64,000 bases of DNA, taken from assembly GCA_028150825.1 (NCBI GenBank), contig JAOGIM010000002.1, positions 1 through 64,000 on the forward strand. Reading direction: 5' to 3'. Position numbers and translations under genes: made by a program. The notes beneath the pieces were generated by a model that saw only the letters and a list, made by a program, of their open reading frames with translations, was not told where the DNA came from and did no database searches. Origin of the DNA: Paracoccaceae bacterium. GTDB taxonomy: Bacteria > Pseudomonadota > Alphaproteobacteria > Rhodobacterales > Rhodobacteraceae. Positions within the stretch are counted from its first letter, which is position 1. Each line of letters opens with the position of its first letter. This document shows, one piece after another, positions 50,925 through 57,655 of the stretch.

Positions 50925-51131
50925 ATGGAAGTCAGTGTCCGCGACAACAATGTCGATCAAGCCCTTCGTGCGCTTAAGAAAAAACTACAACGCGAGGGTG
51001 TGTTTCGCGAGATGAGATTGAAAGAGCATTTTGAAAAGCCATCTGTGCGCAAAGCTCGTGAGAAAAAAGAAGCTGTTAGCCGTCAACGCAAGCTTGCTCG
51101 CAAGAAGGCTGAACGCGAAGGCATGCTGTAA
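50925..51131 (+). CDS. rpsU: 30S ribosomal protein S21
   Basis: [68 protein letters not shown]. Confidence 0.97.
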
Positions 51132-52853: not shown

Positions 52854-53230
52854 TATACCTCAATTCCAAAAACAAAAGAGCCTTTGTCGCATCAGCAGTC
52901 TCCCTCAAACTGCACAAAGTCAAGTGTGTCACATTTTGCTTTGTAAAGAGAGTAAGAAGATCCATTCAAGCGAACCACGTTTGAGACGGTTTTCTGCGAA
53001 AGTTGATAAATAAACATATAGGCAAAAACACAGGCTGAATAAGGCAAAGTAAACGAGATCAAGATTGGCGCGTCGATTATAATTGCGCTGTGGTGATGTA
53101 CTTTGAAAACGTCAGCATAAATCGAACTGCCCGTTGTTCGTCTTTTTTGCACTACCCTGCTGCTAGCAGGATGCCTTAAACGCAATCCCACTGGAGAGAC
53201 ATCCTTTTATCCTGAAAAATCGGAAGTGAT

Positions 53231-53500
53231 ATGACGTTTGCAAAGTCGTAATGGTTGAGAAGGAACGCCTTCTACAAGTGAGACGGAAGACAACCCCGCA
53301 AGGGATCCGTCACTGCACAGGGTTGCCTGACCGTATGGGTCCTGTGTATGCGTGTGATACGCCAGTAAAAGAGATGATCGCAAAACCTGCTCTTCCCTGC
53401 AAAGGGTTTGGTGATACGGGCTGACAAGCGATGTGCAATAAACGCATTGAGCAGTTTTAGATCGACGCCTTTGCAGGCGTTGATCTGACTGCTCTTTGCA
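53231..53500. ncRNA. Candidate structured RNA / structured leader with tandem hairpins (strand unknown)
   Basis: Hairpins: AGAAGG-AACG-CCTTCT (53258-53273); GACGGA...TCCGTC (53282-53311); CACAGG...CCTGTG (53315-53346); GCGT-GTGAT-ACGC (53350-53362); ACC...CCC-TGCAAA-GGG...GGT (53385-53412); GAGCAGT/AGATCGACGCC-TTTGCA-GGCGTTGATCT/ACTGCTC (53449-53494). Confidence 0.4.
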
Positions 53501-53637
53501 ATCTCGAATAAAAGAAACCAAATCAATTCAACTTAATCAGTTAAGACGAAGTATCTGAGTTCGGCGATAGCTGAACACTCGTAGATGCGTAGCAGATGCG
53601 ATTGACGATAAAGATATTAAAGCAGTTCCTACTAAGC

Positions 53638-53979
53638 CTAATACTCTTCTCCAAGCATTATTGTGAGCACACGTCTGGTTACATGTGGATCACTTGGATC
53701 AGGGCTGTGGTTCATCAGATCAAGGTCGTAGTAATCGATCTTCCAGAAGACAGTATTGCCTTCATACTCAATGGCCCCAAAGTCATGTTCACCAAATGGA
53801 TCATTGCGTTCAGAGAAGTCATCAAAACTCTTCACCAAGTTTAAGATGCAATCCACAGCGTCGTTACCCAGTAAATCTATGCCTTGTGTGATGATGATTT
53901 TGCAATTGGTGAGGGTGGTGCGGGCTTGATCGTTTAGAAGTGCAATTGATTGGGTTGTTCTGTCAACGTTGTGCTGCAA
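53638..53979 (-). CDS. DUF3768 domain-containing protein
   Basis: NDPFGEHDFGAIEYEGNTVFWKIDYYDLDLMNHSPDPSDPHVTRRVLTIMLGEEY. Confidence 0.9.
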   Translation of the reverse strand: MQHNVDRTTQSIALLNDQARTTLTNCKIIITQGIDLLGNDAVDCILNLVKSFDDFSERNDPFGEHDFGAIEYEGNTVFWKIDYYDLDLMNHSPDPSDPHVTRRVLTIMLGEEY

Positions 53980-54000
53980 GCCTAGCTCCTTTTACGGAAG

Positions 54001-54340
54001 CATATGCTCAACGATATGATTGGACGACCGGAGATTTGGTGTGAGTTTATATGCGCAAGCCTTTGGTCCTAGGTTGCCTAGAACCAAAAAATAAGCGGCG
54101 TTGTGAAGCAAGTGTTTTGATACTCGGCTTTACAACAGTAATTCTACTATGGGGCAAACACAGTCGGGTGACCCACTATGGGCCAACATTGTGTTCCCAC
54201 AGTCTTCGCCGGTTTTGGTGTGCCCACAGTCTCCCGTTGTGCGCAGCGCAATGAGATAAATAACTGTGTAAGTTATTAAGGGAGATATTTATGAGCGTAA
54301 AATTATTAGAGCACATACGCGATGAATTGAGAGGTTCTGG
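54001..54340 (+). repeat. Long direct repeat, copy 1 (identical core 54080-54277)
   Basis: Aligned to 57319 onward at a constant 3318-bp offset with no indel over the compared stretch; core 198 bp identical by eye. Confidence 0.92.
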
Positions 54341-54497
54341 TGCAATTCAAAACACACCAGAGTTTTGTACTGGCTGGCTGGGAAGAAGTGAGGGTTACAT
54401 AAGAACACTGCGTTTCCATGAATTAGAACCCAGTGTGGAAGCGCTAAGTGTGTGTTCCCACAAACTTGGACATTATACTAGCAGATTGAGATCATAG
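54291..54497 (+). CDS. Small DUF6626-like protein
   Basis: MSVKLLEHIRDELRGSGAIQNTPEFCTGWLGRSEGYIRTLRFHELEPSVEALSVCSHKLGHYTSRLRS; AGGGAG upstream of ATG. Confidence 0.65.
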   Translation: MSVKLLEHIRDELRGSGAIQNTPEFCTGWLGRSEGYIRTLRFHELEPSVEALSVCSHKLGHYTSRLRS

Positions 54498-57262: not shown

Positions 57263-57318
57263 TTAGCAAAACGAAGATGACACACACCTGTCGACGCACA
57301 TTCCTGATTTTATAAAAG

Positions 57319-57655
57319 CATATGCTCAACGATATATTTGGACGACCGAAGATTTGGTGTGAGCTTCTTTGCTCAAGCCTATGGCCACATATTGCACAGA
57401 ACCAAAAAATAAGCGGCGTTGTGAAGCAAGTGTTTTGATACTCGGCTTTACAACAGTAATTCTACTATGGGGCAAACACAGTCGGGTGACCCACTATGGG
57501 CCAACATTGTGTTCCCACAGTCTTCGCCGGTTTTGGTGTGCCCACAGTCTCCCGTTGTGCGCAGCGCAATGAGATAAATAACTGTGTAAGTTATTTAGGG
57601 AGATAATAATGAGCATAAGATTATTGGAACATATACGCGATGAGTTGAGAGGCAG
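57319..57655 (+). repeat. Long direct repeat, copy 2 (identical core 57398-57595)
   Basis: See copy 1. Confidence 0.92.

Follow-up and report, generated by a model that had tools for sequence, protein, structure and literature searches.

A structured RNA of about 480 nt, related to Polynucleobacter-1, in satellite-like islands of Rhodobacteraceae and in phage contigs

The window, which is the whole 64,000-nt stretch of Paracoccaceae DNA that was analyzed, carries a small island with a tyrosine recombinase gene, a structured noncoding region, a DUF3768 gene, and a truncated DUF6626 gene (Table 1). The original prediction had placed a series of tandem hairpins at 53231-53500 and read them as a candidate structured RNA. 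All of these are present at those positions, including CCC-TGCAAA-GGG (53395-53406), ACGCC-TTTGCA-GGCGT (53465-53480), and the outer arms GAGCAGT (53449) and ACTGCTC (53488), along with GACGTTTGCAAAGTC at 53234-53248 and a further TTTGCA at 53495. They form the 3' part of a longer RNA of ~480 nt on the + strand, at about 53015-53507. Aligned conservation reaches ~220 nt further 5' than the region first described, to GATAAATA at 53005-53012, and its 3' limit is the terminal hairpin, at about 53500. The start of the RNA would lie at about 53015-53025.

Folding of both strands, which had been suggested as a check, gave an energy for 53200-53530 far below that of dinucleotide shuffles (z = -4.3; 0 of 100 shuffles), and the minus strand of the same region also folds low (z = -3.6). 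Folding alone thus leaves the strand undecided; two other features, where the promoter-like element lies and the G-U pairs of the homologues, place the RNA on the + strand. Rfam searches of this region of the window gave no match at gathering or relaxed thresholds (up to E = 5). A minus-strand open reading frame (ORF) at 53207-53521 was considered as a gene and rejected; its frame is open in the window, but homologues differ by numerous indels whose lengths are not divisible by three. With a structure that covaries among homologues and a reading frame that is not conserved, the region is a structured noncoding RNA, as had been proposed.

Table 1. Parts of the RNA and neighboring island genes, in window coordinates
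Feature	Position	Strand	Evidence or remark
Tyrosine recombinase of island, 188 aa	51133..51699	-	PF00589 E=2e-28, phrog_216
GATAAATA, T4-late-promoter-like -10 element	53005..53012	+	Upstream of RNA in 12/13 island homologues
PK1 5' strand AACGAG	53052..53057	+	Pairs with P3 loop 53130-53135; one mismatch in window
5' domain P1-P5	53059..53180	+	Model R1 E=1.2e-14; homologous to RF01718-modeled domain of phages
P4 5' strand TTTGCA	53146..53151	+	Partner TGCAAA 53239-53244
P4 3' strand TGCAAA, originally described as GAC-GTTTGCAAA-GTC	53239..53244	+	Partner-swap test and covariation
P7 hairpin AGAAGG-AACG-CCTTCT	53258..53273	+	Double changes in 5/6 pairs
3' domain core P8, P9, P10, P11	53277..53401	+	Model R2 E=2.6e-24
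PK2 5' strand CCGTAT, P9 apical loop	53331..53336	+	Partner ATACGG 53414-53419
P11, covarying AGAG/CTCT stem, conserved loop AUGAUNGCAAAACCUG	53370..53393	+	Covariation
P12 hairpin CCC-TGCAAA-GGG	53395..53406	+	Loop sequence varies among homologues
PK2 3' strand ATACGG	53414..53419	+	Covariation
Direct repeat copy 1, TGCAAT	53434..53439	+	Precedes terminal hairpin
P13 terminal hairpin GAGCAGT...GATCGACGCC-TTTGCA-GGCGTTGATC...ACTGCTC	53449..53494	+	9/10 inner pairs with double changes
Direct repeat copy 2, TGCAAT	53497..53502	+	After terminal hairpin
DUF3768 gene, convergent with RNA	53638..53979	-	PF12599 E=1.2e-33
DUF6626 gene, truncated, island marker gene	54291..54497	+	Intact relative in L113: PF20331 E=4.5e-40

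A search of genomes of the family found homologues at 80% (L003) and 72% (L004) identity and shorter matches (L005, L006, and L007). Contigs were scanned with the conserved strings GATGATNGNAAAACCTGC (3' domain) and CCGTTCTGATGTGNGACGG (5' domain) and then filtered by profile; the matches to the GATGATNGNAAAACCTGC pattern in genome contigs were mostly chance and were removed by the profile. Apart from the homologues, matches with E of 0.0005 to 1, L002 and L010 among them, seem to be chance or coding sequence with no relation to the RNA. Homologues occur in the Rhodobacteraceae genera Marivivens, Shimia, Pseudorhodobacter, Nereida, Tropicimonas, Aliiroseovarius, Yoonia, and Roseicyclus and in isolates SB2, XHP0102, and IMCC1909, the last of which has two different copies. 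They are also found in Limnohabitans and in more than 100 IMG/VR contigs of uncultured aquatic phages; the bacterial copies are in small mobile islands of Rhodobacteraceae and other Proteobacteria. Occurrence in genomes is sporadic (7 of 298 genomes of the family and 6 of 399 of the phylum), and the 5' hairpin string is present in at least 120 stretches of phage contigs, with 105 distinct sequences over about 110 nt among the retrieved loci.

Two models were built with the window and its nearest relatives left out, R1 for the 5' domain (36 sequences) and R2 for the 3' domain (17 sequences), and both match the window (Table 1), although shortened calibration makes their E values rough. R2 also matches L384, L315, L292, L341, L313, and G569 (L432), none of which was in its training set, immediately 3' of the 5' domain. 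In other phage lineages, the 5' domain is retained but is followed by a different 3' part. Six phage contigs (L218, L307, L308, L314, L338, and L380), some of which adjoin terminase genes, have only the core hairpin CCGTTCTGATGTGTGACGG in common with the RNA, and this hairpin may be a portable module. A locus from Magnetovibrio (L070) has no R1 match and a modest R2 score and is a doubtful member. BLASTN against the INPHARED phages and the PLSDB plasmids gave short chance matches only, and at the sensitivity used the 5' domain was not found in 12 records of cultured or isolate phages, including T4, S-PM2, HTVC008M, and PA5oct.

Covariation among the homologues, which had been put forward as a check on the RNA, is strong. 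On an alignment of 21 full-length sequences (A1), 82.5% of the pairings in the 78-pair structure are standard, and 62 of the 78 pairs have changed on both sides. Shuffles give 95 double-change cells where the alignment has 259, and the covariation score of 0.44 compares with 0.20 for shuffled and about 0.1 for slid alignments; the structure was drawn on L166, partly by eye, and since the sequences are related, the shuffle counts are not P values. For the 5' domain (36 sequences), the score is 0.54 versus 0.19. In the predicted fold, P4 would close a 5' domain (P1 to P5) that contains a pseudoknot (PK1), a 3' domain (P7 to P12) would contain a second pseudoknot (PK2), and at the end of the RNA a strong hairpin would stand with an identical short repeat on each side. 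The window copy has a variant P2 (GATGT-ACTTTGAAA-ACGTC).

The two predicted long-range pseudoknots are supported by comparison of the homologues. In a test that needs no alignment, the 5' tail and the P3 loop (PK1) of the same RNA are complementary over at least 6 bp in 36 of 46 representatives, versus 13% with partners swapped; for P4, the corresponding values are 21 of 26 and 5%. For both, 0 of 500 permutations reached the observed sums. On A1, all seven pairs of P4 have changed on both sides and 97.8% are paired, while PK2, in which the P9 loop pairs with sequence 3' of P11, has double changes in six of six pairs and is 78.6% paired.

The original prediction had linked the loops CTGCAAAGG and CCTTTGCAG (TGCAAA at 53398 and TTTGCA at 53470) in a kissing interaction. 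They are complementary in the window, but the match is absent from 20 of 20 aligned homologues: the two closest (L113 and L129) have TTTACA as the second loop, so that the pair is lost, and the other 18 have no matching pair. This interaction was rejected as peculiar to the window copy. However, the broader idea of long-range contacts mediated by loops holds through other contacts that covary (53052-53057 with 53130-53135, 53146-53151 with 53239-53244, and 53331-53336 with 53414-53419). The recurrence of the hexamer, which had also been pointed out, is present and is due largely to the conserved long-range helix and the direct repeat flanking the terminal hairpin; two of the copies are the P4 strands (53146 and 53239), and the copy at 53495 overlaps the repeat.

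In many members, two copies of a string of 6 to 11 nt flank the terminal hairpin. The copies are identical within an RNA and different between phages, for example, AGCAAAGTC in L138, ACACAAT in L365, CAGATAATGTG in L298, and AGGGTCCAA in L374; the repeat is also present in L062 and in the window (53434 and 53497). They covary by identity, with a mean longest match to the own partner of 6.41 versus 4.82 (standard deviation, 0.16) when permuted (0 of 200). For most members, no complement of the repeat is present elsewhere in the RNA. GTGCAA/TTGCAA had been considered as a 3' closing helix and proved to be a direct repeat. One guess is that the twin repeats are two binding sites for one partner.

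Island neighbors of the RNA in Rhodobacteraceae include a tyrosine recombinase of ~190 aa and DUF6626 and often a phage-type clamp loader and DUF6641 or DUF3768. The same type of recombinase adjoins the RNA in most island homologues, and the gene cluster with the DUF6626 marker was found in 19 loci. Two islands were examined in full at the level of annotation, that of Marivivens donghaensis (~4.5 kb, with two porin genes on either side) and that of XHP0102 (~8 kb, flanked by methyltransferase and glycosyltransferase genes). Both contain a recombinase or clamp-loader homologue and DUF6626 or DUF6641, and neither has capsid, portal, or terminase genes or other recognized structural genes; at the annotation level, this is the gene content of a phage satellite, with an integrase or replication gene present and structural genes absent. 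At L433 (G148:C6, about 211300-215500), the RNA shares a ~4.5-kb mobile island between two porin genes with DUF6626 and two different tyrosine recombinases. Small phage-type clamp-loader homologues (L436:957-1586 in G321, L003:178-900, L057, and L113) occur in islands that have no other recognized replication genes.

In 12 of 13 islands, the 100 nt upstream of the RNA contain GATAAATA, an element that we take to resemble the late promoters of T4 and cyanophages; any NATAAATA would be expected in 2.7% per 100 nt. GATAAATA also precedes the DUF6626 gene in one island group. Together with the clamp-loader homologue, it hints that the islands might be mobilized by a helper phage. Upstream of phage copies, NATAAATA is rare (9 of 123), so the argument for a late promoter rests on the islands.

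In T4-like contigs, the RNA is located between genes for gp46/47-like (SbcCD) exonucleases and structural genes (baseplate hub, tape measure, and portal), and in other phage contigs it is near terminase genes; most of these contigs are fragments. A tRNA scan of 26 loci found one tRNA in total and none in 25 of them. The first downstream gene in many T4-like contigs (L331, L361, L357, and L377) encodes a protein that starts with MKxxEIIxE, presumably similar to the capsid-targeting N terminus of T4 internal proteins, and these products may form a family of capsid proteins that are internal or injected.

The claim of novelty was correct in that no Rfam family fits this region of the window, but the RNA is not wholly new, as its 5' domain belongs with RF01718 (Polynucleobacter-1). 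RF01718, the only Rfam family found in searches of the region and its homologues, matches the phage homologue L331 at 70 bits (gathering cutoff, 37) over the 5' domain, where R1 also matches, and the two models overlap again in G569. R1 joins L331 (E = 2e-10), G569 (E = 1e-12), and the window (E = 1.2e-14) by the 5' domain around the hairpin CCGTTCTGATGTGNGACGG. RF01718 has no match in this region of the window up to E = 5 and none above its cutoff of 37 bits in the window's own genome. Furthermore, R1 scores weakly or not at all on two RF01718 loci (L430 and L431), which makes the edge of the family fuzzy. For both reasons, we treat the window RNA as a relative, within a wider family, and not as a member. 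The RF01718 loci L430 to L432 adjoin DUF6641-like genes, as judged by reading the sequence, as do some islands.

The 2010 description of Polynucleobacter-1 (Weinberg et al.) listed it for Burkholderiales and fresh water and judged it probably an RNA and probably cis regulatory, with its status as a riboswitch ambiguous (PMC2864571, Table 1). That motif has 141 nt, whereas the RNA reported here has ~480 nt and includes a second domain, and its range takes in Rhodobacteraceae, phages, and satellite-like islands. The comparison indicates that the RF01718 motif makes up a single domain of a larger RNA, which is carried by phages and satellites and varies in its 3' part. The earlier catalogue held only a fragment of the phage relatives, as this orphan motif.

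With roughly even confidence, we propose a structural role in trans for the RNA, which phages and satellites would make late in infection and which would work like GOLLD and ROOL. Under this proposal, 53015-53507 would encode the ~480-nt RNA of a small integrative island resembling a phage satellite, transcription would start from a promoter of the phage late type upon infection by a (T4-like) helper, and the product would serve in the lytic program as a compact RNA or RNA-protein scaffold common to phages and satellites. Late transcription, the satellite lifestyle, the relation to a helper, and scaffold action in trans are all predicted from sequence. GOLLD and ROOL are large phage RNAs of unknown function, and the RNA described here shares with them a large size, pseudoknots, and occurrence in phages or prophages (PMC12286853). 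Like GOLLD, it has one conserved and one variable part, the conserved part here being 5'. However, it is shorter than either, the GOLLD and ROOL Rfam models have no match in the window or in the homologues searched, and the two are often near tRNA islands, in contrast to the loci scanned here. A homo-oligomeric RNA nanocage would be a further mark of the GOLLD and ROOL kind. ICP1 phage and the PLE satellites also each make an abundant noncoding transcript (PMC7567579); the likeness, by description, is that phage and satellite both have a noncoding RNA, and the host, phage, and island genes differ.

A role in packaging or assembly, either as an RNA or as a packaging site that satellites share with helpers to enter their capsids, is unlikely but deserves the most weight among the alternatives. 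The RNA is common to phages and islands that are otherwise little alike, several phage copies adjoin terminase genes (L045 and L307), and phage records searched whole have one copy each. The model for such an RNA is the pRNA of phi29, which serves packaging and is much smaller; the likeness is an RNA encoded by a phage near packaging or structural genes, as in part of the loci here, although no Rfam match to it was found and a position next to terminase is not general. T4-like contigs place the RNA near gp46/47 and the baseplate hub instead, we know of no packaging RNA in T4, and RNA covariation argues against a bare DNA site. Less probable again is an antisense, sponge, or anti-defense RNA whose twin repeats bind one target specific to the host or phage. 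Repeats that vary between phages yet agree inside each RNA, mostly without an internal complement, would suit such a function, but they have only 6 to 11 nt, and the large conserved 5' domain would be left unexplained.

We regard as improbable, and below both of these, a cis-regulatory leader or riboswitch for the downstream gene, which was the judgment made for Polynucleobacter-1 in 2010 (PMC2864571, Table 1). The first downstream ORF is co-oriented in 66 of 76 phage loci, but the downstream gene is convergent in the other 10 and also in the window (DUF3768, - strand), L113, L129, and L057. Downstream genes vary between lineages, the median distance from the core to a gene on the same strand is 473 nt, and the RNA has a strong hairpin at its end. 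No homologous gene keeps a constant place downstream of the RNA in the same orientation. It is very improbable that the hairpins are merely RNA-like and belong to a DNA site for recombination or replication of the island; the adjoining recombinase and the inverted and direct repeats are set against G-U pairs and long-range pseudoknots that covary and against copies in phage contigs with no adjoining recombinase. The displaced rRNA leader or internal transcribed spacer with boxA, named originally as the main alternative from the resemblance of TGCTCTTT at 53490 to a boxA core, is refuted by the lack of an Rfam rRNA match, of any nearby rRNA or tRNA gene, and of constancy in the boxA-like string (the outer P13 strand plus the repeat, which varies between homologues) and by the presence of homologues in phages and mobile islands.

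Large structured phage RNAs are among the least understood RNAs, and one of ~480 nt with two pseudoknots in more than 100 aquatic phage contigs and in small chromosomal islands would rank among the more widespread of them. More tentatively than the proposed mode of action, we suggest that it represents a major new class of large phage RNA that is common among aquatic phages and that includes Polynucleobacter-1 as no more than a domain; that satellites carry their own copy because a helper-dependent lytic program needs the RNA; and that the twin 3' repeats are a specificity element of an undescribed kind. This would recast the orphan RF01718 from a supposed leader to a domain of a phage RNA. 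The islands are in named, sequenced host strains (Marivivens, Shimia, Pseudorhodobacter, Nereida, and Limnohabitans), which makes the function testable, and the RNA provides a marker by which satellites of T4-like aquatic phages can be found.

The island in the window looks partly decayed, with a truncated DUF6626 gene and one mismatch in PK1, while the main helices of the RNA are intact. A 300-bp direct repeat (93%) is found at 53990-54289 and 57308-57607 and flanks a copper-type gene set inserted in the island, in which DUF411-like, cytochrome c, and CopC- and CopD-like ORFs were recognized by reading. The DUF6626 gene is split, with one fragment after each copy of the repeat. Near the island end, at 50925-51131, there is also a short ORF whose basic product reads like ribosomal protein S21.
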